A model generated the notes under the pieces. It ran no database searches, was not told the DNA's origin, and worked only from the letters and a program-made list of their open reading frames with translations. Shown here in pieces: positions 4,635-55,652 of a DNA stretch of 64,000 nucleotides. Position numbers and translations under genes: made by a program. Origin of the DNA: a virus; the IMG/VR virus record IMGVR_UViG_3300013116_000108, positions 1-64,000 of that record, one strand, 5' to 3'. Numbering within the stretch: the first letter of the stretch is position 1; every line of letters begins with the position of its first letter.

Positions 4635-4828
4635 TGGATTGGTACACAACATGGTGGTTACTTGCCGCATATACAATTGGTACAGTATTAGGATATAAAA
4701 TGGCAACTAGACGAAACTATATTATTATTTCTGAAACTATAGATGGTTTAAGAAGAGGTGGGTTTCTAAAAGTTAAAGAAACAGGTAATGACAATTATGA
4801 AATATTAAAGGTAAAACAAAATGATTAA
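4634..4828 (+). CDS. Small single-pass membrane protein
   Basis: The 64-residue product has one hydrophobic N-terminal segment (about residues 5-22, WWLLAAYTIGTVLGYKM) followed by a basic cytoplasmic tail. Its ATG overlaps the previous stop codon and has an AGGAG box upstream. Its stop overlaps the next start by 8 bases, so it is coupled to the phosphoribosyltransferase. Function is not recognisable. Confidence 0.55.
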   Translation: MDWYTTWWLLAAYTIGTVLGYKMATRRNYIIISETIDGLRRGGFLKVKETGNDNYEILKVKQND

Positions 4829-5300
4829 GAAGAAAATTTATAGTTGGCATGACGTTGAAAAAATGTGTTCACAATTACTTGTACAACTTTACAACAGTGA
4901 ATGGAGACCTGATTACATTGTAGGTATTACACGTGGCGGGAATGTACCTGCTACAATTTTAAGTAACATGACAGGTATTAGATGTGAGGCTGTTAAGGTT
5001 GCTTTACGAGATGGCGAGTCTGGTAAAACTGGAGACAGTATTGCTTGGATGGCCGAAGATGCTAAAATGGGCAAAAATATTTTAGTAGTAGATGACATTA
5101 ACGATACTGGTGCTACTTTTAAATGGTTATCAGAAGACTGGGGTCTTAATGGTGGGGACAATGTTCGTTTTGCTACATTAACAGAAAACTTATCAAGTGA
5201 TTTCGATGGAGTCGATTATTACTGTGATGAAGTTAACAAAGCCGAAGAAGATGTTTGGCTTGTTTATCCTTGGGAAAATGTAGGTGAATATAATGGATAA
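4821..5300 (+). CDS. Purine-type phosphoribosyltransferase
   Basis: The 159-residue protein has the type I phosphoribosyltransferase fold signature: an N-terminal beta strand with ITRGGNVPA and the PRPP-binding motif ILVVDDINDTGAT near residues 90-102. By family it would join a purine base (hypoxanthine, xanthine or guanine) to PRPP to give a nucleoside monophosphate. Length fits the Gpt-type salvage enzymes; the specific base cannot be read from the sequence. A GMP reductase at 37.9-39.0 kb and the queuosine-type genes in this window make a purine salvage role plausible. Confidence 0.8.
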   Translation: MIKKKIYSWHDVEKMCSQLLVQLYNSEWRPDYIVGITRGGNVPATILSNMTGIRCEAVKVALRDGESGKTGDSIAWMAEDAKMGKNILVVDDINDTGATFKWLSEDWGLNGGDNVRFATLTENLSSDFDGVDYYCDEVNKAEEDVWLVYPWENVGEYNG

Positions 5301-5559
5301 AGAATACAAAAAATACACTTGTAAGTATAAAGCCGAATGGCCAGTTGATAAATTTGGTAGGATTGGTGGTATGTATAGTACGGCTGATTTACCTGTTCAA
5401 GGTTATGTAGAATTGGAAAGAACGGGCACTTTAGTATCCCAAGATTCCAAACGTGAAATGTACGAAGTACAAGATGGCGAAAGAATGTTTGTAAAGAGGG
5501 TGGTTCCTTTTACAAAAGTCACAGATATAGAGGAAGTCGTTAATGAATCAGATAAATAA
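5293..5559 (+). CDS. Hypothetical protein
   Basis: I place the start at the ATG at 5293, which has a TAGGTGA box upstream and overlaps the previous stop by 8 bases; a GTG at 5284 is possible but less well placed. The 88-residue product is charged, without membrane segments, and resembles no family I know. It closes the first plus-strand operon; a sigma70 promoter begins 2 bases after its stop. Confidence 0.5.
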   Translation: MDKEYKKYTCKYKAEWPVDKFGRIGGMYSTADLPVQGYVELERTGTLVSQDSKREMYEVQDGERMFVKRVVPFTKVTDIEEVVNESDK

Positions 5560-5560
5560 G

Positions 5561-5590
5561 TTGACAATCCCATATACTTTATGTTATAAT
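5561..5590 (+). promoter_or_regulatory. Sigma70-type promoter for queD-clpP-queE
   Basis: A perfect -35 (TTGACA, 5561-5566) and a perfect -10 (TATAAT, 5585-5590) are separated by 18 bases. It sits between the end of one gene and the queD leader, so it should drive queD, clpP and queE as an early, host-polymerase transcript. Confidence 0.8.
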
Positions 5591-5605
5591 TATAACATGA
5601 TAAAC

Positions 5606-5665
5606 GAGGTCTACAAGGGATCAACCCTCACAAAATATTCTGCCCCCTCTATTAACAATCGGAGG
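5606..5665 (+). promoter_or_regulatory. Structured queD leader, possible preQ1-type riboswitch
   Basis: Between the promoter and the queD ribosome site lie complementary blocks GAGG (5606), AGGG (5616), CCCTC (5625) and CCCTC (5645). They can form either a nested hairpin pair or an H-type pseudoknot with an A-rich third loop (ACAAAATATT), and the two folds exclude each other. PreQ1-I riboswitches have such a short pseudoknot with an A-rich tail and sit before que genes. The core does not match the consensus I remember, so this is a candidate only. Confidence 0.3.
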
Positions 5666-5673
5666 ATAAAATA

Positions 5674-6159
5674 ATGGCTAATGCCAAACAAAAAAAATAT
5701 GTTTCAACAAAAACGTACAGACAAGGATTTCCAGTTGCTTACAGACAATGGAGAGCCGACAGTCATTGTAATATAATTCATGGATATGCTTTGAGTTTCC
5801 ATTTTGAGTTTGAGTCAGATGACTTAGATGTAAGAAATTGGGTTATGGACTTTGGCGGTTTAAAACCACTAAAACAATTATTAGAAGATTGGTTTGATCA
5901 TACACTATTGTTAGCACTTGATGATCCAAACTATGATGATTTTAAGAAACTAGGCGAACTAGGACTAGCAAAGATTACAGAAGTTGAAAAAACAGGCTGT
6001 GAAGGTATTGCTGATTTCTTGTATGAATATATCAATACTATTTTCTTAAAAGATTATGGTGAAGCAGATAGAATATGGTGTTCTAGAGTAGAAGTAAGAG
6101 AAACAGATTCTAATATGTCCTACAGACAAGGACATAGAGAAGATGGCGATTTTGAATAA
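5674..6159 (+). CDS. queD: 6-carboxy-tetrahydropterin synthase-like protein (QueD)
   Basis: The 161-residue protein has the QueD/PTPS pattern seen in marine T4-like phages: [15 protein letters not shown] near residues 25-39, then the MDFGGLKPL strand and WFDHTLLL. In the pathway it turns dihydroneopterin triphosphate into 6-carboxy-tetrahydropterin, the precursor of 7-deazaguanines. The usual HGH zinc motif reads HGY here, a variation to note. It starts after GGAGG (5661) and is first in an operon with clpP and queE. Confidence 0.8.
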
Positions 6160-6175
6160 TAATAAAGGAGATAAC

Positions 6176-6763
6176 ATGGCATTAATACCAATTGTAGTAG
6201 AACAAACATCAAAAGGCGAACGTAGTTACGACATTTATAGTAGACTATTAAAAGACCGTATTGTAATGTTAAGCGGTGTAGTTGAAGAAAATATGTCAAA
6301 TGCCATTGTTGCTCAATTACTATTTTTAGAAAGTCAAGATCCTGAAAAAGATATTACACTATATATTAACTCACCTGGTGGTTCAGTAACTGCTGGAATG
6401 AGTATGCTTGATACAATGAACTTTATTAAACCTGATATCTCAACTGTAGTTATGGGCCAGGCTTGTTCGATGGGTTCATTGTTAGCAAGTTCAGGTACTA
6501 AAGGTAAACGTTTTATGTTACCTAATGCTAGACACATGATACATCAACCCTTAGGTGGATTTAGTGGACAAGCAACTGACGTAGAAATTAGAGCAAACGA
6601 GTTGTTACGTTGGAAGAAAGTATTAACTGAAGTGTATGTTACTAACACAGGCAAAGACTTTGATACATTAAGTAAAGACATGGATCGTGATAACTTTATG
6701 ACAAGTGAAGAAGCGGTTGCTTACGGACTTGCTGATAAAATTATTGCCGAAAGAGAAAAGTAA
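6176..6763 (+). CDS. clpP: ATP-dependent Clp protease proteolytic subunit ClpP
   Basis: The 195-residue product is a full-length ClpP lacking an obvious propeptide. The start is the ATG at 6176 after AAAGGAG. The catalytic triad is visible: Ser in GQACSMGS, His in MIHQPLGG and Asp in DMDRDNFM; the INSPGGSV strand is intact. ClpP forms the proteolytic barrel fed by an AAA+ unfoldase. This phage also encodes ClpX at 43.2-44.4 kb with the loop that docks on ClpP, so a phage-encoded ClpXP is likely. It lies between queD and queE with no functional tie to them. Confidence 0.93.
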
Positions 6764-6767
6764 ATTA

Positions 6768-7703
6768 ATGATGTCACTTAAATATAGTAGTGAACCAGTA
6801 ATGAAAAAAGAAGAGAAAAAGTTTTATTACTCTGAAATATTTCATTCTATCCAAGGAGAAGGTCATTATACAGGTGTTCCTACTGCTTGGATACGGTTCT
6901 TTTTATGTAACTTACAATGTAGTGGATTTGGACAAGTAGATCCAACTAACCCAGATACATATGAACTTCCATTTGAAGATTTTGATGTATCAAGTGTAAG
7001 TCGTGTTGAAGACTTGCCAGTATGGGAGAAAGGTTGTGATAGTTCTTATACATGGGCTAAGAAATTTAAAAGTTTAATGGGCTATGAAACACCTACTACA
7101 CTAGCAAATAAAATTGTAGATGTTTTAAAAAATGAAAGTAATCCACAAGGCTTGTTTTTACATCCGGTAAGTAAACAACATCAACACTTATGTTTTACAG
7201 GTGGTGAACCGTTGATGTTAACAGGACAAATGGCTACAATGGGAATTTACAATGAACTTAAAAGACAAAACAATTTACCAAGTTCAATGACATTTGAAAC
7301 AAATGGAACACAACCATTAAAGCCTGAATTTATAGAATGGGCAAACACTATACCTGAAGAAGTATTCTTTTCGTGTAGTCCTAAATTGTTTACAGTATCA
7401 GGCGAGAAACCAGAAAAGGCTATTAGACCAGAAATTGTAGGCAAGTATATGTCAGCATCTATTAAAGGACAACTAAAATTTGTAGTTGGAGATAAAGACA
7501 GAGAGTGGGATGAAATGGAATCAGCAATACAGAAATTTAGAGATGCTGGTGTTGATTGGCCTGTATGGGTTATGCCCACAGGAGCAAGAGAAGAAGAACA
7601 AACTGCTGGTGCCGGTAAGGTGGCAGAAAAGGCATTTAAACGAGGATATAATGTAGCGGCAAGAGTACACGTTTATTTGTTTGGAAATGCTATAGGAACA
7701 TAA
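6768..7703 (+). CDS. queE: 7-carboxy-7-deazaguanine synthase-like radical SAM protein (QueE)
   Basis: The start is ATG 6768, just after the clpP stop (6771 is an alternative). The N-terminus has the QueE signature FHSIQGEGHYTGVPTAWIRF, followed by CNLQC. The third cluster cysteine of the radical SAM CxxxCxxC motif is not adjacent: after a 38-residue insertion comes GCDSSYTW, which matches the CDTxYTW end of the motif. TGGEPL and the glycine-rich strand are conserved. The enzyme contracts 6-carboxy-tetrahydropterin to 7-carboxy-7-deazaguanine. At about 311 residues it is longer than bacterial QueE because of the insert. Confidence 0.82.
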   Translation: MMSLKYSSEPVMKKEEKKFYYSEIFHSIQGEGHYTGVPTAWIRFFLCNLQCSGFGQVDPTNPDTYELPFEDFDVSSVSRVEDLPVWEKGCDSSYTWAKKFKSLMGYETPTTLANKIVDVLKNESNPQGLFLHPVSKQHQHLCFTGGEPLMLTGQMATMGIYNELKRQNNLPSSMTFETNGTQPLKPEFIEWANTIPEEVFFSCSPKLFTVSGEKPEKAIRPEIVGKYMSASIKGQLKFVVGDKDREWDEMESAIQKFRDAGVDWPVWVMPTGAREEEQTAGAGKVAEKAFKRGYNVAARVHVYLFGNAIGT

Positions 7704-23522: not shown

Positions 23523-24707
23523 TTAAACACCGTAATCTTCTTGTCCGCCTTCACGTTCAATATCTAGTGTAACACAATGCCATCCTGCGTCCCAGAAGTG
23601 CCTGTGTCTGTTTGGTACATGGATCATGTCAATACCATGTGAGTTGAATGTTTTTTCTAATTCTAAATTCTCAGCATTTACTACTGCTGTTTTTTCGTCT
23701 AGCATTAACAGATTAACATCAAAAACTGTTTCTTCTACAAACCCAACCCAATCGTCTAACCAGGTTTCTACAAAGTCTGTAAACTCAGCATTATCTTCTT
23801 CACCAGGCATCCACCATTTACCTTCGTTATGCTTTTTAATATCTAAAAACGGTCTTACTTGATTTAAGTTGCTTTCTGGTAAGAATATTTTATCCCAACC
23901 TGGGAAAGATTCAGCGTAATGTCCAATATCTTGTGTTGTTAATAATACGCCCGGTTTTAGCACATTAAAAACAGCATCATTATGACCACCAATAAAAACA
24001 CCTTTATAGTTGAACTGCGGATATGCCAATTCCATGTAGTCAGCAATATCTACTGCCTGTTGAGTATCAGCAAAACAAGTCTTTCCTACTCTAGTTAATT
24101 CCGGAGCACAAAACCCTGTCATTCTATCTGTTGTATGTTGCTCTTGTTCTAATTCTAATAATGTGTCAATATCGCTATCTTTAATACCTAACCGACCTAA
24201 TCTATTTCTGTGATTTGCTGTTGTTCTTGTAAACTTCTTTTTATTTTTAACAATGCTCCAATCAAAGTTATCACCAAACCATTTCTCAAGCAATGGAACC
24301 CATGGTTTGGATTCAAAAGCACTTCCAGTCATTACTACTTGATTGCCCATTGTAACAAAATCATCACGCGGATTAAGTGGTGGGACAGGTAGTTGATTTC
24401 TGCCCTTTTCATGTTGACCATGTTTATCACTTCCCATGCCCAACTTACCTTCTTCATCCAAATAGTCCATTATACTTGTTTTGTATCCAAGTTCTTCTGT
24501 TGTAGTAGTATATGTTTTAGCACCGAAGTCTTCTACTACCTTTTTTAAGTTATCTAAATCTTCTAATGTTTCACTAGCAATACGCTGAAGACAATCTCTT
24601 GCTTTAGAGTTTTTAACGTCTTCAAAAAATTCTGGAGGATAAGTTGTACCAATTACTAATTGTTTGAGCGGTTGGAATTCGCTCCATGAGTTTACTTTAT
24701 TTGTCAT
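23523..24707 (-). CDS. Amidinotransferase paralogue 1 (GATM/StrB family)
   Basis: The 394-residue protein belongs to the arginine:glycine amidinotransferase family. The start VNSWSEFQPLKQLVIG, the catalytic His in FIGGHNDAVFNVLKPG and the catalytic Cys in GWHCVTLDIERE match the GATM pattern. By family it moves the amidino group from arginine to an amine. The acceptor cannot be predicted. Two paralogues lie at 51.2 and 54.4 kb; this one overlaps the preceding gene and lies before tRNA-Thr. Confidence 0.82.
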   Translation of the reverse strand: MTNKVNSWSEFQPLKQLVIGTTYPPEFFEDVKNSKARDCLQRIASETLEDLDNLKKVVEDFGAKTYTTTTEELGYKTSIMDYLDEEGKLGMGSDKHGQHEKGRNQLPVPPLNPRDDFVTMGNQVVMTGSAFESKPWVPLLEKWFGDNFDWSIVKNKKKFTRTTANHRNRLGRLGIKDSDIDTLLELEQEQHTTDRMTGFCAPELTRVGKTCFADTQQAVDIADYMELAYPQFNYKGVFIGGHNDAVFNVLKPGVLLTTQDIGHYAESFPGWDKIFLPESNLNQVRPFLDIKKHNEGKWWMPGEEDNAEFTDFVETWLDDWVGFVEETVFDVNLLMLDEKTAVVNAENLELEKTFNSHGIDMIHVPNRHRHFWDAGWHCVTLDIEREGGQEDYGV

Positions 24708-28872: not shown

Positions 28873-29022
28873 ATGAGTAAAGACGACCAACGTGCTTGGA
28901 ATATGTTTAAAATATCAAACGGTGGACAATTATGGACCAGTTGTGATTTATGTAAAACGTTTTGTCTTGGCTTAATTGCTGGACTTTGTATAACTTTTAT
29001 ACTTGTTGCTATTATTTTGTAG
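28873..29022 (+). CDS. Small membrane protein
   Basis: The 49-residue product starts at ATG 28873, 10 bases after the previous gene, with AAAGGGAATATT upstream. It has a C-terminal hydrophobic helix (FCLGLIAGLCITFILVAIIL) and three cysteines. It converges with the cyclase gene and overlaps its 3' end by 11 bases. Confidence 0.5.
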   Translation: MSKDDQRAWNMFKISNGGQLWTSCDLCKTFCLGLIAGLCITFILVAIIL

Positions 29023-31111
29023 TAGCAACATACACACCATCCCATTCTTTAGGTGGAGGATTTTTCTTAAATTCTTCAATCCTATCTGTGATGATTTCGT
29101 AATAACTATCTAGAGAACCACTAAACTGCCCCTTAAGATTATCAATACAATCTTTACAATGTTTCCAATCTTGTTTACGATAACTTTTTCTCAATTCTAT
29201 ATGTAGTTTAACAAATTGCATTACAGTTGGTAAGTCATGTATTCCAACAACATCAGGATCTAATACTGTGTAAATAGCAACCGGTTCTGTTTTGCCTTTT
29301 ACAGCAATTTGATCTAGTTCTAAAATTGTATGTTTATCAGATAAACTCCTTGCTGTTTCTTCGCCAAATAATATTTTCACACCATATCCTTTCGTTTGTC
29401 CTTCTAACCTAGCGGCTAAATTAACAGCATCACCTAAACAACTGTAATCAAATCTTTGATCTGATCCCATATTTCCAACTACGGCATCACCTGTATTAAG
29501 TCCAATGCCTATGTTAATTGGTAGTTTATTTTCTGCCGTTAACTGAGTATTTAACTCCTCTAATCCCTTTAACATCAATAAACTGGTATCAACTGCCTTG
29601 TCAGCCTGTTCGTCAACATCTAAAGGAGCGTTCCAAAATGCCATAATACAATCGCCCATGTATTTGTCGACCGTACCTTCTTTTTCCATAATAATATTTG
29701 TCATAGGTGTTAAGAACCTGTTAACTAATTCTGTTAAACCTTGTGGATTAGTTTTGAATTGTTCTGATATAGGAGTGAACCCTCTAATATCGCAAAACAG
29801 CAATGTAAGTTTTCTAGTATCTCCACCTAGTTTTAATAAGTCTGGATCTTTTTGTAATTTCTTAACCATGCTCGGTGCTAGGTAATGTTCAAACTGCTTT
29901 TTGATTTGTTGCTTTAATCTAAACTCTTTTACAAATCTATTAAACACAGCATGGAAGCCAACAATTAATAACATTAATGCCGGCATTGTAGGATCTATTA
30001 ACCATAACTTAGATTGGAACAAATATGTCACGCCATATACTATGCCATTTAAACTAGCAATAATAACAACACCACTAAACCAATAAGGAGCAAAGGCTAC
30101 AATAATAACAAGTAACATGCCCATAGCAATAATGCCACCTAGTTCATATAAATCCGCCCACATAGGACGTTCAACAGTTTCGCCTAATATAATTGTGCTT
30201 AGTGTACTGCCTATAATTTCATGTGGATATTTTTCACCTATAGGTGTACCAACTGGATTGCCTAATCCTTCTGCTGTTAATCCTATAATAACTGTTTTAC
30301 CTTCAATACTTTGTAAACTATCTACAGTATAATCTAATGTAGGAATGTCAGCATTCCAACGTAAAAATAATCTACCCCTGTCATCAGTTTTAATAATTCC
30401 TCTGTTAACAGGAAAACCTTTTACTCTAACACTATCTATTCCATAAGGCGTAGTTTTCATTTGATAACTGTCTACGCCCATCATTACTCTTAGTGTTTCT
30501 ACTGCTATATTAGGATATAAATCTCCTTGTACATTTATAAGCAAAGGAACACGTCTTACAACGCCATCTACCTCTGGTGCTGTAGTTATTACACCTACAC
30601 CATCAACAACGTCTGCTAGTTCTTTTAGAGGCCCTAGCATACCTGAATATGTAAACAAGTTATTAGCCGCATCTTTGTTACCGCCAACCATACTAACACC
30701 ACGTGGTATACCTGTTGTGCTTTTTTGTATGCTACCTGTTTGTGCTATAACTACACCATTCTGGTATAGTGTTTCCATAAATTCCTGATCTTTGAGAAAT
30801 CTATCTGCTTCACTAAACAGTACAGGTAATACAATAACGCCTGCTCCGTTTTCGCGAAGTTCCCAAATAAGATTGGAAATTAAATCTCTTGGCCAAGGCC
30901 ATTGGCCATTTGTTTCGATACTTGCTTCCCCCAATGTTACATAAACAAGATTATTATCTACATAAGGTTCTTCTTTTTGTAATTGATAATCAAAACTTTT
31001 TAATTTTGCTGTTTGTACTACCCAAGGATTTAAGAATACTATATAAGCAATAGCAAATACAGTTAAAAAAGGTATACTCCAATGTGTTAGAATTCTACTT
31101 AACTTCGACAT
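29012..31111 (-). CDS. CHASE2-domain class III nucleotide cyclase
   Basis: The 699-residue membrane protein has an N-terminal membrane anchor and a periplasmic CHASE2 sensor (about residues 35-325, with LITPEVDGVVRRVPL-like and GNPVGTPIGEKYPHEIIGS segments). Three more membrane helices follow at about 330-415. The C-terminal cyclase domain shows both metal aspartates, in LLFCDIRGF and KYMGDCIMAFW, plus the later VVGNMGSDQRFDYSCLGD signature. It would make cAMP or cGMP on an external cue. It is the last gene of the curli/FecR island and is highly unusual in a phage. Confidence 0.88.
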   Translation of the reverse strand: MSKLSRILTHWSIPFLTVFAIAYIVFLNPWVVQTAKLKSFDYQLQKEEPYVDNNLVYVTLGEASIETNGQWPWPRDLISNLIWELRENGAGVIVLPVLFSEADRFLKDQEFMETLYQNGVVIAQTGSIQKSTTGIPRGVSMVGGNKDAANNLFTYSGMLGPLKELADVVDGVGVITTAPEVDGVVRRVPLLINVQGDLYPNIAVETLRVMMGVDSYQMKTTPYGIDSVRVKGFPVNRGIIKTDDRGRLFLRWNADIPTLDYTVDSLQSIEGKTVIIGLTAEGLGNPVGTPIGEKYPHEIIGSTLSTIILGETVERPMWADLYELGGIIAMGMLLVIIVAFAPYWFSGVVIIASLNGIVYGVTYLFQSKLWLIDPTMPALMLLIVGFHAVFNRFVKEFRLKQQIKKQFEHYLAPSMVKKLQKDPDLLKLGGDTRKLTLLFCDIRGFTPISEQFKTNPQGLTELVNRFLTPMTNIIMEKEGTVDKYMGDCIMAFWNAPLDVDEQADKAVDTSLLMLKGLEELNTQLTAENKLPINIGIGLNTGDAVVGNMGSDQRFDYSCLGDAVNLAARLEGQTKGYGVKILFGEETARSLSDKHTILELDQIAVKGKTEPVAIYTVLDPDVVGIHDLPTVMQFVKLHIELRKSYRKQDWKHCKDCIDNLKGQFSGSLDSYYEIITDRIEEFKKNPPPKEWDGVYVATTK

Positions 31112-33843: not shown

Positions 33844-34536
33844 TTAGTCACTCACTGTAATGTCTACGTCATGACTAGCACCTGATGTAATTGTGCTTAC
33901 ATTAGCATCATTTGTACCACTTACGACAACATCGAAGTTACCCGACGATCCTGTATGTTGCATAGTTACACTATGACCAGCACTATCTCCGTCACCGTCT
34001 ACATCTACGTTAAATGTATTAGTAGATCCTGTTACAGTTAAAGATACTGGAGCACTAGCACCATCAATATCAATATTTGCTGTGTTAGTATCACCTGTAA
34101 TCTGTAAAGTAACATCAGAGTCAGCAGAGTTTCTAATTGTTCCTACATCAATGTCAATGTTGTTACTATCACCTGTTGATCCTGAATCGGTTACGTCAAT
34201 ATCTACATTCCAGTTATCACAGTTATAGTTTCCTGTAGCGTCACAATTTAACACAATGTCGTTTGAGTTACCAGTTACGTCAATATCAACGTTAGCACTA
34301 GCACCTTCTACGTCTGCGTCTAAAATGTTACTATTACCTGTTTGAGTTACACTAAATGCCATACTTGAGCCTATTAACGAAATTCTGTCACTACTAGTAC
34401 CAGCAACGTTATTTGTACCATCTTGGACAATATCTAAGTTTAAGTTATCACCACTTTGTGTAATATAGATATCGTTTGCTTTGGCTCCAGTTAACCCTAA
34501 TGCAACTAAAAATGATATTAATATTATTTTTTTCAT
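33844..34536 (-). CDS. Secreted curlin-like repeat protein
   Basis: The 230-residue protein has a signal peptide and then a regular array of Asp/Ser/Thr/Asn repeats (NIDIDVGT, TANIDIDG, NTFNVDVDG). These resemble curlin or other secreted beta-solenoid subunits, and the first mature segment DIYITQSGDNLNLDIVQ is a perfect curlin-style repeat. It lies directly after csgG and is probably exported by it. Confidence 0.72.
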   Translation of the reverse strand: MKKIILISFLVALGLTGAKANDIYITQSGDNLNLDIVQDGTNNVAGTSSDRISLIGSSMAFSVTQTGNSNILDADVEGASANVDIDVTGNSNDIVLNCDATGNYNCDNWNVDIDVTDSGSTGDSNNIDIDVGTIRNSADSDVTLQITGDTNTANIDIDGASAPVSLTVTGSTNTFNVDVDGDGDSAGHSVTMQHTGSSGNFDVVVSGTNDANVSTITSGASHDVDITVSD

Positions 34537-35519
34537 AATTTATTTTCCTCAAGGTTGAAGTACGAAGAATGTAAATCGTTACCGTCTTTGATATTATTAG
34601 TTTTATCTTCTTGGTTTTGTTTTTCAACTGCTTCGTCAACTTCTGCCCAAGCCTTTTCTTCTTCGGCTCTGGCATCTGCTTCTTGATCCGATATTGTTTC
34701 TTGTACTTCATTCTGTAAATCTAACCCGTCGTTAGATTTAAACGCCCAAAGTTTTTTTTGATTACCACGTTCAATTAAGTCGCATACTGCTAATTCTATG
34801 GCTAGTCTTACAGCCACGTTTACAGGTTCATTGAGTGCTACTCCTACTTCTCCTTCTACAGGTAATGTACCAGCATCAAACCATCTAAATATATCACCTT
34901 GTGTTTTAGCACCAATGATTGTTTTTGTGGTTGTTGATGTTAGTAATATTTCTCCCGATGAAACTGAAACTAGTCTTATGCTAATTGTTACAGAATCTCT
35001 TGTATATTGAGAATTTGCTCCAATGCCTAATATCCTTGCTCCATTTCCACCACTTTCGAGATTGCTATCGTATCCTACTATTGCGCCTTCAATTATCACT
35101 CCAGCAAATAACAATGGTCTTAATTTTTCTTTGTCTTCGTTTAGTTCCCTGGTTTGCCTAATAATTTGTCGTTCTTTTATAAGGTGATCAATTCCTGCTC
35201 TTTCAACTACTTGAAACCAAGTGCCATTTCCTACTTCCTTTAGTGTTTCTATCAAATAAGCATCGGCTCCTTGGGTTACTGCCGAACTTAAATGTGCTAT
35301 ATTCAATCCAGGTTTTCTTTGACCTGTTTTGTCGGAAAACTGATAAACAGCAACCGTCATTGCGGGTCCATCTAACTCTGGATGATTTTTGACATCTTGA
35401 CTAGCATGTTGTACACCGGCTATATTATACTTGTCAGTATAAAGTTTATTATTCTTAGTCGTTGTAGTACATCCTGTTAAGAAGATTACTAAAATTATAA
35501 TTGATAAAATCTGTTTCAT
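34533..35519 (-). CDS. csgG: Curli secretion channel CsgG
   Basis: The 328-residue protein is a lipoprotein (signal ending LTGC). It shows the CsgG signatures TVAVYQFSDKTGQRKP, LIETLKEVGNGTWFQVVERAG and GVIIEGAIVGYDSN, with conserved transmembrane hairpins (YTRDSVTISIRLVSVSSGEIL). A nonameric CsgG pore exports curlin subunits across the outer membrane. The charged C-terminal tail beyond residue 280 is extra. csgF precedes it and curlin-like proteins follow. Confidence 0.92.
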   Translation of the reverse strand: MKQILSIIILVIFLTGCTTTTKNNKLYTDKYNIAGVQHASQDVKNHPELDGPAMTVAVYQFSDKTGQRKPGLNIAHLSSAVTQGADAYLIETLKEVGNGTWFQVVERAGIDHLIKERQIIRQTRELNEDKEKLRPLLFAGVIIEGAIVGYDSNLESGGNGARILGIGANSQYTRDSVTISIRLVSVSSGEILLTSTTTKTIIGAKTQGDIFRWFDAGTLPVEGEVGVALNEPVNVAVRLAIELAVCDLIERGNQKKLWAFKSNDGLDLQNEVQETISDQEADARAEEEKAWAEVDEAVEKQNQEDKTNNIKDGNDLHSSYFNLEENKL

Positions 35520-42894: not shown

Positions 42895-43200
42895 CTAGTA
42901 CATTCTCTTTTGAGAAAATCCCCATTGTGCTTCTTGTTCACGTTGTTTCTTTAACCAACGATTACGGCCTGCTTTTTTGGCTAGTCTTTTCTTTTCGCTA
43001 GGTTTTATAAAATACTGCCTATCTCGACATTCTTGTAAAGTATTGTCTGCTTGGAGTTTTTTCTTTAGTTTTCTTAATGCCTTTGTGACATCATTGTTGT
43101 GAACTATAACAGTTGTTCCACCTGTTAAATCTTGAGCTCTTTTAGGTTGATTTCTATTACCAAAGCCTGCTCTGTTATTGCTTTTTCTATTTACAAACAT
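42895..43200 (-). CDS. rpsU: Ribosomal protein bS21-like
   Basis: The 101-residue basic protein has a core VIVHNNDVTKALRKLKKKLQADNTLQECRDRQYFIKPSEKKR that matches bS21 (V..N...ALRR.K......L.E.R.R..Y.KPS..R). Residues before it are an extension. bS21 helps small-subunit binding of mRNA starts; phage copies are known in aquatic phages and can bias ribosomes to phage messages. It overlaps the clpX stop by one base. Confidence 0.85.
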   Translation of the reverse strand: MFVNRKSNNRAGFGNRNQPKRAQDLTGGTTVIVHNNDVTKALRKLKKKLQADNTLQECRDRQYFIKPSEKKRLAKKAGRNRWLKKQREQEAQWGFSQKRMY

Positions 43201-44363
43201 TAAGCCTCCTGTACGTCTGTGTCATTAATAATTACTTCCTTTCCTTTAAGTTGATCTAACTCGTAATAGTATTCAAGCAAAGTATTTTCTAATATACCTT
43301 TTAATGCTCTAGCACCTACCTTATATTGTAACGCAAGTTCGACTATTTTGTCAAGTGCTTTCTCCGAAAATATCAAACTAACATTATCTAAATCAAAATA
43401 GAACCTAGTTTGCTCAATTAGGTTATTATCAATATCAGCCAATACTTGTTTTAATTCATCTTTGGAAAGTTCTGTTGTTTGAACAACAACTGGAAAGCGA
43501 CCAATAAATTCAGGTATCATTCCAAAGTCAATTAACTCGCTTGAAATTAGTTTACTTTGGCCTCCGTGTGTTTCTCCAAACCCAATAGTATTTGTTTTTT
43601 GGCTGTCCATTCCAACAAATGCTCCACTTCCAATAAACAAAATCTTACTAGTATCTACTTCAATCATTTCTTGCTGTGGATGTTTTCTTCCACCTTGTGG
43701 TGCTACTCTAACAGTTGTACCTTCAACTAATTTTAACAATGCTTGTTGTACACCTTCGCCTGAAACATCTCTAGTAATTGAAACGTTCTCACTTTTCCTG
43801 CCAATTTTATCAATTTCATCTAAAAATACAATACCTTGTTCTGCTCTTGCTACATTGTAATCTACTTTCATTAGCAAAGAACTAATAATACTTTCAACAT
43901 CATCACCAACATACCCACTTTCAGTTAAACTTGTAGCATCAGCAATTACAATAGGCACATCTAAAAACTTAGCAATTTGTTTTGCCATAAAAGTTTTACC
44001 ACTACCAGTAGGACCAATTATTAATTGATTATTCTTTTCAATAGTACCTTTTCTATCATACATTAATCTCTTGTAGTGATTTACTACACCTACTGCCATA
44101 TGACGTTTTGCTTTATGTTGTCCAACTACTGTTTCGTCTAAAAATGCTACAATCTCTTTTGCTGTTTTGGGTTCTAATTCCTTTGCCCATTGCTTTGCCT
44201 TTTCATCTGTGAGGACTTTACTACACAAATCTATACATTCATCACAAATACCAACACCTTCTGCTACAATAATCTTGTATACTTGGTCTTTTGTTTTGCC
44301 ACAAAAATTACACTGACTGACTGAACGAATTTGATCTATACTAGTTGATTTATCATCTGTCAT
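43200..44363 (-). CDS. clpX: ATP-dependent Clp unfoldase ClpX
   Basis: I use ATG 44363 (AAAAGG upstream). The 387-residue protein is complete: N-terminal zinc finger (CNFCGKTK...CDECIDLC), Walker A GPTGSGKT, Walker B IVFLDEIDKI, pore loop GYVGDD, an RKHP loop like the one that reads the ssrA tag, and TNTIGFGE, the IGF loop that docks ClpP. ClpX unfolds tagged proteins and feeds ClpP, which this phage also encodes. The tmRNA tag at 54.1 kb ends in LAA, a ClpX signal. Confidence 0.93.
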   Translation of the reverse strand: MTDDKSTSIDQIRSVSQCNFCGKTKDQVYKIIVAEGVGICDECIDLCSKVLTDEKAKQWAKELEPKTAKEIVAFLDETVVGQHKAKRHMAVGVVNHYKRLMYDRKGTIEKNNQLIIGPTGSGKTFMAKQIAKFLDVPIVIADATSLTESGYVGDDVESIISSLLMKVDYNVARAEQGIVFLDEIDKIGRKSENVSITRDVSGEGVQQALLKLVEGTTVRVAPQGGRKHPQQEMIEVDTSKILFIGSGAFVGMDSQKTNTIGFGETHGGQSKLISSELIDFGMIPEFIGRFPVVVQTTELSKDELKQVLADIDNNLIEQTRFYFDLDNVSLIFSEKALDKIVELALQYKVGARALKGILENTLLEYYYELDQLKGKEVIINDTDVQEA

Positions 44364-51210: not shown

Positions 51211-52251
51211 CTATTCTCTCCATAGTTCGCCGAAATCGAGATCGTCTTTTCTATTAAAGAGATCTTCAATGTTGCTTTGTCTTTCTATATCAAAAGTAAC
51301 ACAATGACTACCACCGTCCCAAAAATATTTGTGTCGCAAAGGACAATGTATTACTTCAATTCCATTTGTATTTAACAATCTTGTAACACTATCGTTTACA
51401 TGACTAGTAATAACAGTCTCAGGATTAATATGTAACATGTTAACTTCAAATGTAGTTTCTTGACTATAACCAATCCAATGTGTTAGATACTGCTTAATAA
51501 AATCTACTGCTTCTTGCTGTGGCTCGTTAACTAACTTAAAACTAAAATCTTCCCATAATCTATGATAACGTTCTAAATCGTTTGGCATATAATGAGGGAG
51601 TTTATGTATTTCCCAACCTTTGAACGTATCAGAATATTGATCTACTTCATAACGTGTTAGTAATAATCCAGGCTTTATAGGACATACACTACTATCACTA
51701 TGTCCCCCAATACTTGCTGTATGTATGTTTACATCTAGATGGACCAACTCTCTATATTTCTTTATCCATTCAACAAATGGCAAGTTTAATTTATTTTCTG
51801 TATCTATTAATAAATCTTTACCTAACCTAAAAACATCACTAGCACAAAAGTAATCAAAAAGTATAACATCATCTTTATATGATGCTAGTGCTTCTTTGCC
51901 ATAATTTTCCCAGGCCCAATTAGCACCAACAAATATTTTATCATGCCAACGTAATAAATGATTTCTTACAGCAAACGGTTGTCCTGGTAATTGTTTACGT
52001 TCTGCTATTGTTTGTTCAGCAAGAGTAAACCCTTCGTTATCCATGTATGTTTTAACGTCTGGTCGTACCACCTTAACACCTTGCGATTTTAATACCGAAC
52101 ACATGTTGTTTAAATCTTCTTGTGTTTCTTCTGTAATTTGTACTAGACAATTTTTTATTTGGGCAGGCAGTCCCTCGTAAACACTTGTAGGTAAAACGTC
52201 ACCCACTAATACTTTAGATAACTCTCCCCAATTATGAAAACAATTTTCCAT
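51211..52251 (-). CDS. Amidinotransferase paralogue 2
   Basis: The 346-residue protein has the family pattern: NWGELSKVLVGDVLP start, SIGGHSDSSVCPIKPG with the catalytic His, and GGSHCVTFDIERQ with the catalytic Cys. It is the shortest of the three paralogues. It overlaps the P-loop protein at 52251-53000 by one base. The acceptor of the arginine-derived amidino group is unknown. Confidence 0.78.
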   Translation of the reverse strand: MENCFHNWGELSKVLVGDVLPTSVYEGLPAQIKNCLVQITEETQEDLNNMCSVLKSQGVKVVRPDVKTYMDNEGFTLAEQTIAERKQLPGQPFAVRNHLLRWHDKIFVGANWAWENYGKEALASYKDDVILFDYFCASDVFRLGKDLLIDTENKLNLPFVEWIKKYRELVHLDVNIHTASIGGHSDSSVCPIKPGLLLTRYEVDQYSDTFKGWEIHKLPHYMPNDLERYHRLWEDFSFKLVNEPQQEAVDFIKQYLTHWIGYSQETTFEVNMLHINPETVITSHVNDSVTRLLNTNGIEVIHCPLRHKYFWDGGSHCVTFDIERQSNIEDLFNRKDDLDFGELWRE

Positions 52252-53074: not shown

Positions 53075-53983
53075 TTAGAATGAGTATTTAATTCCTAATG
53101 CCATTTGTGTAGTATCAGTACCAGAGTCAACATCAGTTAACTGGTACTCAGCGTATGTTGACAAAGATTCAGATAAGTCACGGCTAACTCCCGCTGTGTA
53201 GTAGTTGCCTGTACCTTCTTTATCTTGTAAACTAACAGCAATCGTGTTTCCAGCGATTGAAGTAGATGCTGAGTATTCAAGACCTGTTAAGTCTGTAGTT
53301 GCTGTATCTTTGTACGAGTATGTACCTGCTAGTGTAATACCAGCAACGTCAATACTTGCAGAAGCAATGTTGTACTTAACAACATTTACTTTGTCATCAA
53401 CCATAGCACCAGAAAGTGCTACTGGACCTACGTCCATTGAAGCAGATACATCAATAACATCAAGACCATCCTTACCTGTAGAACCATCAATTACTGCCAT
53501 AGCATTAATTGTAACTGGGCCTACTGAGTTAGAATATTTTACAGAGTTTGAACTACGGTCAGCATATTTAAATGTGGCGTTTCCACCATAGACGTTAAAT
53601 ATGTTAGTTTTACTAACTCCAGCACCTGGATTTGCTTGTCTACCAGCCGCTACTGAACCTAAAGTACCTGCATCTACACCAACGTATGCTAGTCTAGAGT
53701 CAAATGTATCAGATCCTGAATCATCGGCGTCAACGCCAACCTCTACTTTACCGAATCCAGTAAGACCGCCTTTTTCGTTGCCCTCAGCATCAACTAATGT
53801 TTCGCTAAATTCAACACCGATCTTAGATCCGTTGTTTTGTGCCTTTAAGTGTGCCTTTCCTGTAGAATCATCATCGTTAGAAACCATGTAATTTACAGAA
53901 CCATAAACGTTAACATCAGCAAGTACCGGAGCACTTAAAAATGATAAGCCTAAAGCAACTGTGGCAATTAGTATATTTTTCAT
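53075..53983 (-). CDS. Gram-negative outer-membrane porin
   Basis: The 302-residue protein has a signal peptide (IATVALGLSFLSAPVLA) and then the general bacterial porin pattern: DVNVYGSVNYMVSNDD, GKVEVGVD, RLAYVGVDAGTLGSVAAGRQ, and the last strand ending QMALGIKYSF with terminal Phe. As a Gram-negative porin it would be inserted in the host outer membrane. It lies directly after the tmRNA gene. Confidence 0.85.
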   Translation of the reverse strand: MKNILIATVALGLSFLSAPVLADVNVYGSVNYMVSNDDDSTGKAHLKAQNNGSKIGVEFSETLVDAEGNEKGGLTGFGKVEVGVDADDSGSDTFDSRLAYVGVDAGTLGSVAAGRQANPGAGVSKTNIFNVYGGNATFKYADRSSNSVKYSNSVGPVTINAMAVIDGSTGKDGLDVIDVSASMDVGPVALSGAMVDDKVNVVKYNIASASIDVAGITLAGTYSYKDTATTDLTGLEYSASTSIAGNTIAVSLQDKEGTGNYYTAGVSRDLSESLSTYAEYQLTDVDSGTDTTQMALGIKYSF

Positions 53984-54009
53984 ATTTTTTTCCTTTACAT
54001 ATATGTAAA

Positions 54010-54339
54010 GACCCTCGCCACTAGAGGCGAGAGCCCTCTTCTAGAAGATTTCTGTTGATAGGCATCTTCCAAACCCCGAGCAACTATGCCGCTAAGGCAA
54101 AGTCCTCATGAAACACATTATCGTTTGCGTTTATACGTTTTGTTCGCGTTAACCGAGCTTACATCCGGGCAACTCCACTCTCCTAATAACTACCTGTCGA
54201 TCCTTTTTCAACCCCATCATAAACACATTCATATAATCACACCAAAATCTGTGTTGTTACTTTTGGAATGTGTTTATGGTGGAGTTGCTGGGTACCGCCC
54301 CCAGGTCCAGATTAGCGTTTGAATAACTTCATCGTTACG
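54010..54339 (-). ncRNA. ssrA: Two-piece (permuted) tmRNA, tag ANDNVFHEDFALAA
   Basis: This stretch on the minus strand is a permuted tmRNA gene. First comes the acceptor piece, ending in CAACTCC-A-CCA (CCA at 54279-54277). A spacer follows with a perfect 12-bp inverted repeat (54266-54277 / 54219-54230). Then the coding piece starts GGGGTTG at 54215. GGGGTTG pairs with CAACTCC in 7 bp and keeps the G3-U70 alanine identity pair; GGATCGACAGG is the tmRNA D-like region. The tag frame (54128-54084) reads ANDNVFHEDFALAA then TAG, much like alphaproteobacterial tags. The T arm CTGGG/CCCAG has an unusual loop, GGCGGTA. A sigma70 promoter lies directly upstream. Confidence 0.92.
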
Positions 54340-54345
54340 ACATTA

Positions 54346-54374
54346 TTTATAACATAAAGTAGAAAAAATGTCAA
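54346..54374 (-). promoter_or_regulatory. Sigma70-type promoter for the tmRNA
   Basis: TTGACA (54374-54369) and TATAAA (54351-54346) are 17 bases apart on the minus strand, placing transcription start near 54339, just before the acceptor piece. Confidence 0.8.
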
Positions 54375-54410: not shown

Positions 54411-55652
54411 TTATATGTCGTAATCGGTTTGCTCACCAACTCTGTGTATATCTAATGTGTTACAATGCCAGCCTCCGTCCCAAAAGAAACGATGCCTTAA
54501 TGGAACAAAAATTGGTGTGATGCCTCGTTGTTCTAATTGATCTTTTAAATTTTTATCGTTACTATTAATGACAACGTGCTTTTCGTCTAATACTAAAACG
54601 TTAACATCAAAAATAGTTTCGTCAACTTGTCCGTGCCAATTGTCTAACCATTTGTTAATAAAGTTTTCTAGTTGTGGATTCTCTTCGACTTCCGGTGTCC
54701 AGTAACAACCTTGATTATTATGTCTTAAATTAATTGCTGATTTAACTTCCTTGCCCCAACTTGGTTGATCAAACCAAATAATATCCCAACCTTTAAAAAT
54801 GTCAGCATAAGGTTTGAACCAAGGAGTAGCAATTACTAATCCAGGACGAACTACACTAAACACACTATCGTTATGTCCGCCTATAAAAATTTTATGAAAG
54901 TCAAAGTTTTTGTAATTAGGTTCTAAAAATTCTTCTACTACTTCTGGTGTTTGCCACACATCTACTAAAACTTTATTTCCTAGTCTTGTTAAGTTTGGAG
55001 CACACCACCCATTAAGCGGTGTAGAGTCTTGTAACTTTTCTAACTCGTCCATGTCCTCAACATCAATAGACAAGTGATGTCTCTCTGCCCAACTTTTAAC
55101 GTTTTTAATACTACGTCTAAAGTTAATATTCTTTTCATATATGCTATTATCAACCACAGCATCGCCAAACATTTCTTTATACTTTATAGCAGATAGGTTA
55201 GTACTGTATACATGAGCCTGTGTAATTAATATCTTATCTCCCATTACAAGAGCATCATCTCTTATTGCTAATGGCGGTTGTGGTATTCCTGTACTAGAAT
55301 CGCGTGATAAACGTATATTACGATGGTTTACACCAAAGTTACTTGCTTCTGGAAAGTCTTTTATAGGACTACTAACACCTATTTCACCTGTTTGCCAGTT
55401 AGTGTAGTCTAGTATACTATCTTGGTATCCTAATTCTTTTGGAGTAAGTTGTATTACATCAATGCCGTGGCTTAATAATGTTTGCTTAAAGTATTCAATA
55501 TCTTCTCTTGTTTCTCGAAGTATCTTTGCTAAGCCGTTTTTAATAGTTGTATTTTTAATACCGTCTAAGAAACTATCCTCAAAGACTGACCCTACCATTA
55601 CAGTTTGTAGTGGTTGAAATTCATCCCAAGAATTGACAGTTAACTTTGTCAA
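54411..55652 (-). CDS. Amidinotransferase paralogue 3
   Basis: The 413-residue protein is the longest paralogue. It has VNSWDEFQPLQTVMVG at the start (closest to paralogue 1), FIGGHNDSVFSVVRPG with the catalytic His, and GGWHCNTLDIHRVG with the catalytic Cys. It is the last gene of the ribonucleotide reductase operon, directly after an Sm-like small protein. Acceptor unknown. Confidence 0.82.
   Translation of the reverse strand: MTKLTVNSWDEFQPLQTVMVGSVFEDSFLDGIKNTTIKNGLAKILRETREDIEYFKQTLLSHGIDVIQLTPKELGYQDSILDYTNWQTGEIGVSSPIKDFPEASNFGVNHRNIRLSRDSSTGIPQPPLAIRDDALVMGDKILITQAHVYSTNLSAIKYKEMFGDAVVDNSIYEKNINFRRSIKNVKSWAERHHLSIDVEDMDELEKLQDSTPLNGWCAPNLTRLGNKVLVDVWQTPEVVEEFLEPNYKNFDFHKIFIGGHNDSVFSVVRPGLVIATPWFKPYADIFKGWDIIWFDQPSWGKEVKSAINLRHNNQGCYWTPEVEENPQLENFINKWLDNWHGQVDETIFDVNVLVLDEKHVVINSNDKNLKDQLEQRGITPIFVPLRHRFFWDGGWHCNTLDIHRVGEQTDYDI

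Follow-up and report, generated by a model that had tools for sequence, protein, structure and literature searches.

The window, the whole stretch of 64,000 nucleotides that was analysed, is part of a 204,100-base IMG/VR virus record whose genes include those for a terminase, a portal, a tail sheath and a baseplate. The terminase is nearest to those of jumbo phages, PA5oct, Phosso and Atu_ph07 among them, at ~ 50% identity. An earlier note had read positions 54010-54374 as a phage-encoded, permuted two-piece tmRNA of alphaproteobacterial type with a promoter of its own. These coordinates are right, the strand is the minus strand, and the terminase, portal and sheath genes in the same record bear out the phage origin. 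The parts of the locus are collected in Table 1, together with the other genes discussed below.

ARAGORN calls a permuted tmRNA with the tag ANDNVFHEDFALAA at 53993-54369 (-), and two Rfam models match well above their gathering scores: RF01849 (alpha_tmRNA) with 117 bits against 50 (E 3e-31, whole model covered) and RF04321 (tmRNA_permuted) with 110.6 bits against 47. ARAGORN, Rfam and the predicted fold agree on the permuted order, with the CCA-bearing acceptor piece first, a spacer between and the coding piece last, and they recover the parts as described in the note. The acceptor CAACTCCACCA pairs with GGGGTTG, G3-U70 included. The precursor folds at -48.6 kcal/mol (z -4.64), a value equalled by none of 200 shuffles, and in this fold a 13-pair spacer stem prolongs the acceptor stem, with the T arm formed as well. 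As predicted, the tag terminates in ALAA; its end, ...EDFALAA-stop, is a ClpX-type degron, and [LIMV]AA closes the tag in 62 of 68 phage tmRNAs. The two-piece phage tmRNA gene is real. The hairpin at its 3' side has no good T run and was not called in a terminator scan that works by fixed rules; by eye, relatives carry a hairpin of other sequence there.

Table 1. Features of the tmRNA locus and associated genes, in window positions
Feature	Position	Strand	Basis and remarks
ClpP peptidase	6143..6763	+	PF00574, 266.8 bits; NF001368, 315.5 (cut-off 249); PDB ClpP, 1e-81
Ribosomal protein bS21, adjoins clpX	42895..43200	-	TIGR00030, 54.3 bits
ClpX	43200..44363	-	NF003745, 463.7 bits (cut-off 359); TIGR00382, 438.4 (cut-off 370.75); PDB ClpX, 1e-110
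Outer-membrane porin, next gene after the tmRNA in the window and on six viral contigs	53075..53983	-	45% identical to HTVC008M porin
3' hairpin CTCGCC/GGCGAG, terminator-like, weak T run	54013..54033	-	Sequence
Coding piece, begins with acceptor strand GGGGTTG (G3 pairs with U70)	54041..54215	-	Rfam, covariation
Tag frame ANDNVFHEDFALAA-stop, resume codon GCA	54084..54128	-	ARAGORN; frame held in all relatives
Spacer, presumably removed on maturation; its ends pair and lengthen the acceptor stem	54216..54276	-	Fold
Acceptor piece, ~ 63 nt, with encoded CCA end	54277..54339	-	ARAGORN, Rfam, covariation, fold; 5' end placed from the promoter
T arm CTGGG/CCCAG and 3' acceptor strand CAACTCC, within the acceptor piece	54277..54339	-	
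-10 / T4-type late box TATAAATA, 17 nt past the -35 box	54344..54351	-	Invariant in 6/6 aligned sequences
-35 box TTGACA	54369..54374	-	Sequence; aligned relatives all have TTGAC[AT] here

Covariation of the tmRNA and its porin neighbour

Relatives of the porin are encoded on 16 viral contigs, six of which (L011, L012, L013, L015, L016 and L026) carry a two-piece tmRNA directly upstream of the porin gene, with nrdA, nrdB and small neighbours in the same order around the pair. The tmRNA alignment comprises the window and five relatives (n = 6), L015 being left out as a duplicate of the L012 gene. Across the 23 pairs of the tRNA-like domain, 99.3% of the cells in this alignment are paired; eight pairs have changed on both sides, against a shuffle mean of 3.6, and the covariation score amounts to 0.377 versus 0.159, with all slid versions scoring far lower. 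The acceptor and T stems co-vary, for example from CAACTCC/GGGGTTG to CGGCTCC/GGGGCCG, and the G3-U70 alanine pair noted earlier is invariant in all six sequences. Covariation among the relatives leaves in place both the acceptor pairing and the tag frame, the two features whose fate the earlier note had singled out. The tags themselves differ between the window and its relatives (ANDNVFHEDFALAA, AKDNVFFEDYAIAA, ANDNVFYEDFALAA and ANDNFAYEDYALAA), the frame DN...ED(F/Y)A(L/I)AA remaining constant despite this variation. The tags DDRKSS...ANDN that ARAGORN reports for L016 and L026 were attributed to wrong placement of the resume codon, given that the GCA codon is conserved in the alignment.

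Among 80 loci with nrdB relatives, almost none has a tmRNA or a porin at the corresponding place, which indicates that tmRNA and porin form a unit in one sub-lineage only. The gap between tmRNA and porin shows no second promoter and at most a weak terminator, and hence the porin may be read from the tmRNA promoter. Four diverged phrog_25854 paralogues are also present, at 51211-52251, 54411-55652 and 23523-24707 of the window and at 101060-102112 of the record; one of them shows weak arginine deiminase similarity, and two flank the tmRNA-porin unit.

A hybrid promoter and a late sigma factor

Directly upstream of the acceptor piece lies the element TTGACA-17-TATAAATA, in which a sigma70-type -35 box is joined to a T4-type late box, so the claim of an own promoter stands. 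A generic promoter scan missed this element, as its rules require the sixth base of the -10 box to be T. The hybrid precedes 42 of 67 distinct phage tmRNA genes, whereas plain TATAAT precedes none of the 67; in the rest of the same loci (838 kb) the proportions are reversed, with two hybrids versus 41 TTGAC-TATAAT sites. It also occurs in 62 of the 103 distinct upstream stretches of the acceptor-pattern set described below, among the matches listed. TATAAATA is found near the tmRNA gene in 46 of 68 phage cases versus 2 of 81 host cases, and the two host occurrences are at other places. The ordinary TTGACA promoters of this phage pair with TATAAT.

Genome-wide, TATAAATA has ten sites in 204 kb, seven of them fully intergenic although the genome is 96% coding; the intergenic share is 70%, compared with 7.7% for permuted 8-mers, and most sites are located 19-91 nt ahead of a gene. 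The Melnitz paper gives TATAAAT as the T4-type late promoter (PMC9004378), and a gp55-type late sigma is encoded at 162562-163485 of our record (phrog_12791, 258 bits). The distribution of TATAAATA is that expected for T4-type late promoters, and late transcription from it is predicted, though TATAAATA might simply be a -10 box variant. Early-plus-late use, if it occurs, would explain why the tmRNA promoter alone joins both boxes.

Abundance and ancestry of phage tmRNAs

The view that tmRNA genes are rare in phages had to be given up for marine phages. An exact 33-base acceptor pattern found no match among viral contigs; the sample used here was drawn with a degenerate acceptor pattern and holds at least 119 contigs. 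Among the matches listed, 103 of 119 viral contigs display the coding-piece signature of a two-piece tmRNA, and on this ground attachment-site fragments were rejected as an explanation of the ARAGORN-negative loci. ARAGORN calls a tmRNA in just 61 of these 119 loci (L027-L145, again among the matches listed), and the difference between 61 calls and 103 signatures implies that phage surveys based on this program undercount. A two-piece ssrA in the Methylophilales phage Melnitz was published in 2022, in a study that found 133 unique tmRNA structures in 402 phages, 53 of them two-piece and 50 of these 53 from aquatic phages (PMC9004378). The window element belongs to this known two-piece tmRNA family and to the known set of marine phage tmRNAs, and in marine phages such a gene is no rarity.

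Several other tmRNAs deserve mention in their own right. Unusually long tags of 19-31 residues, such as ANDNALSNVTFVDFSAPVTAVNEDFALAA, occur in marine phage loci L054, L075, L084, L069, L143, L273, L050 and L102. The Pelagibacter phage HTVC008M (KC465899) harbors an unannotated alpha-type tmRNA at 145103-145414 (83.8 bits, tag ANFNEYALAA), which overlaps or falls between small annotated genes, and Sinorhizobium phage Phosso (PV764938) harbors another at 349553-350242 (108 bits), where the annotation leaves a gap.

Phage tmRNAs were compared with host tmRNAs from a class-wide alphaproteobacterial sample and from three orders with small, A+T-rich genomes; the largest of these orders, the large streamlined order below, is probably SAR11, going by the size and number of its genomes. 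A tree of 142 tmRNAs places the window RNA in a phage-only group of 43 with support 98/98. Outside the group that contains all 80 host RNAs lie 59 of the 62 phage RNAs, with weak deepest forks, roughly aligned variable parts, long branches and hosts partly picked by similarity to the window. An earlier 99-row tree agrees. The motif GTGGAGT marks 36 of 68 tmRNAs from phages and none of the 81 from hosts, while CCGTTANCGG is present in 3 of 68 and 50 of 81, respectively, and no phage tag is identical to a sampled host tag. In BLAST against 385 alphaproteobacterial genomes, the window tmRNA matches only over ~ 36 nt of the T arm and acceptor, and naming the host by this route was rejected. The safe reading of these sequence comparisons is that the window tmRNA was not copied recently from any of the host genes sampled. 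Placed in a phage-only clade apart from the 80 sampled hosts, it does not identify the host, contrary to what the earlier note had expected of it.

Other genes offer hints at a SAR11-like host, as the porin, CsgG and an adenylate cyclase are shared with HTVC008M; the latter two are a CsgG-like curli pore (34533-35519) and a CHASE2 adenylate/guanylate cyclase (29012-31111), both common to the window and HTVC008M. On the host side, the large streamlined order has members (G522, G523, G516 and others) with additional partial copies of the tmRNA acceptor. These copies are ~ 75 nt long, several lie at a distance of 0.3-3 kb from the complete tmRNA gene, and they are probably integration scars.

Viral ClpX and ClpP and the role of the tmRNA

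The record also encodes both components of a protease that could act on the tag. The start of ClpX was set at an ATG 30 bases inside the longest ORF. In E. coli ClpX, the GYVG, RKH and IGF loops serve ssrA-tag engagement and ClpP docking; the alignment of the viral protein displays all three, along with the zinc finger and Walker A/B. The ClpP triad is recognizable by eye as Ser (QACSMGS), His (MIHQPLGG) and Asp (MDRDNF), and against the equivalog TIGR00493 the protein scores 303.9, just under the cut-off of 308.6. The row of genes around ClpP (4821-7703) includes some resembling phosphoribosyltransferase, QueD and QueE, a neighborhood that suggests deazaguanine DNA modification. In 64 of 80 phage clpX loci, a gene for bS21 follows within ~ 1 kb, forming a conserved clpX-bS21 pair. 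SmpB is present in nearly all bacteria; none was found in the phage record, so the tmRNA would depend on the host for this partner.

Six contigs read through (G000, G555, G558, G574, G575 and G576) all contain tmRNA and ClpX together, with clpX 6-13 kb downstream of the tmRNA on the same strand, though the six are not independent, being related or picked by similarity and for having ClpX. Three of them (G574, G575 and G576) are large contigs selected only by nrdB similarity and then found to have ClpX. Both genes also occur in Phosso and G568. Conversely, Atu_ph07 and PA5oct have ClpX and no tmRNA, and HTVC008M, Melnitz, G014, G015 and G016 have a tmRNA and no ClpX; tag and protease are therefore no obligate pair. 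Of 59 long phage clpX loci, only 2 come with a called tmRNA at up to 10 kb and 57 do not, in a test that cuts off near the true distance (L016's own tmRNA, 10 kb away, is lost) and suffers from the ARAGORN undercount. This result speaks against a general clpX-tmRNA link and is not decisive.

Starting from the observed gene with its covarying structure and tag frame, the conserved promoter boxes, the late sigma and the ClpX and ClpP genes, we consider it likely that the phage encodes a functional two-piece tmRNA that works by trans-translation; its promoter would serve both early and late, and viral ClpXP may dispose of tagged products. Transcription of the precursor would start at the hybrid promoter, driven by host RNA polymerase with sigma70 early in infection and by the gp55-type phage sigma on the same -10 box later on; such use of one promoter would make the tmRNA supply last through infection. 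The spacer would then be excised by host RNase P and 3' processing enzymes, and the two pieces would remain paired, allowing host AlaRS to charge the CCA end via G3-U70. Host SmpB and EF-Tu would deliver it to ribosomes that have stalled on broken mRNA; these ribosomes would be released while their products are tagged with ANDNVFHEDFALAA. Tagged products would be degraded by ClpXP, with the phage ClpX and ClpP possibly acting beside or instead of those of the host.

Several other readings of the tmRNA itself have to be weighed. The expressed RNA might serve as a decoy that titrates host SmpB or jams host trans-translation, without any tagging. Such an effect has been reported for the tag-less tmRNA-like RNA of phage DS6A (PMC4131195), and SmpB is missing from the phage. 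The full coding piece, a tag frame and hydrophobic-Ala-Ala end kept across divergent relatives and the retained G3-U70 make this improbable. Comparably slim is the chance that the unit exists mainly for porin expression, with a strong promoter and a processed RNA serving as leader of the porin mRNA and rescue being secondary. Such a leader would fit the adjoining porin in the window and six contigs and the gap with neither promoter nor good terminator; the hybrid promoter, however, also occurs outside the porin-linked group, for example in Melnitz (L002), where no annotated porin follows the tmRNA, and read-through is compatible with a rescue role. Still less probable is a functionless host fragment or attachment site gained by integration. 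Although tmRNA genes are common integration sites and many genomes of the large streamlined order have partial acceptor copies near the tmRNA gene, the gene here is complete, covarying and of phage-clade sequence, with an own promoter absent in hosts; covariation and conserved promoter largely refute this origin.

How the tag is disposed of is more evenly balanced, and we give about an even chance to the tmRNA relying on host ClpXP alone, in which case the viral pair would serve replication control, virion assembly or other tasks and be present by coincidence. Viral ClpX is widespread where no tmRNA lies close by, and the authors on AP-J-162 (PMC11242549) and on Atu_ph07 both connect ClpX to DNA replication. 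In the literature examined, phage ClpX is tied to replication or assembly and not to tmRNA; a search on phage-encoded ClpX returned no paper, and we found no prior description of the hybrid tmRNA promoter or of viral ClpX and ClpP alongside a tmRNA. Against host ClpXP acting alone stand the GYVG, RKH and IGF loops retained in the viral ClpX and the family-level identity of both viral proteins. From these features we infer a coupling of the phage tmRNA to viral ClpXP. A broader proposal, that large marine phages possess a near self-sufficient tag-and-degrade pathway of own tmRNA, early-plus-late promoter, viral tags and own ClpX and ClpP, is one we put forward tentatively and consider rather unlikely; if true, ribosome rescue and the clearance of tagged proteins would shift from host to phage control during takeover.

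Phage tmRNAs have been counted before. The present analysis points to a viral tmRNA lineage, rather than recent host copies, that is widespread in marine phages, with a conserved, putatively early-plus-late promoter predicting tmRNA expression throughout infection. As phages are able to encode tmRNA, ClpX and ClpP, virus control of ribosome rescue and of tagged-protein disposal becomes testable. Caution is due in that such tmRNAs are unsuitable for naming a host.

Compared with known systems, the window shares a phage-borne tmRNA gene with Bacillus phage G, mycobacteriophages and DS6A. The tmRNAs of Bacillus phage G and the mycobacteriophages are of the one-piece form. DS6A differs in having a TLD only and no tag (PMC4131195). 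Host RF01849 tmRNAs of the streamlined marine orders have the same permuted architecture and tRNA-like domain; they fall outside the phage-only clade and lack the hybrid promoter, and those of the large streamlined order encode short tags such as ANDELALAA. Closest in kind is the SsrA of Melnitz (PMC9004378; MZ577095), likewise a two-piece alphaproteobacterial-type tmRNA of a marine myophage, with the tag ANDNYVPVDYALAA and the same TTGACA-17-TATAAATA. Melnitz, in contrast to the window phage, belongs to another lineage (141 kb, Kyanoviridae) and encodes neither ClpX nor ClpP, and DNA similarity between the two tmRNAs is limited to the T-arm region. Melnitz carries a glutamine riboswitch inside ssrA (PMC9004378), whereas that of the window phage is far from the tmRNA, at 169817-169865 (-) of the record (L008:5817-5865; 58.2 bits). 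The rhizobial jumbo phages AP-J-162 and Phosso differ from the window phage in their soil hosts. A tmRNA and Clp ORFs are listed in the AP-J-162 paper, whose authors draw no connection between ClpX and tmRNA (PMC11242549), and Phosso (PV764938), a distant relative with a 50% identical terminase, combines an alpha-type tmRNA with ClpX and ClpP, as the window phage does.
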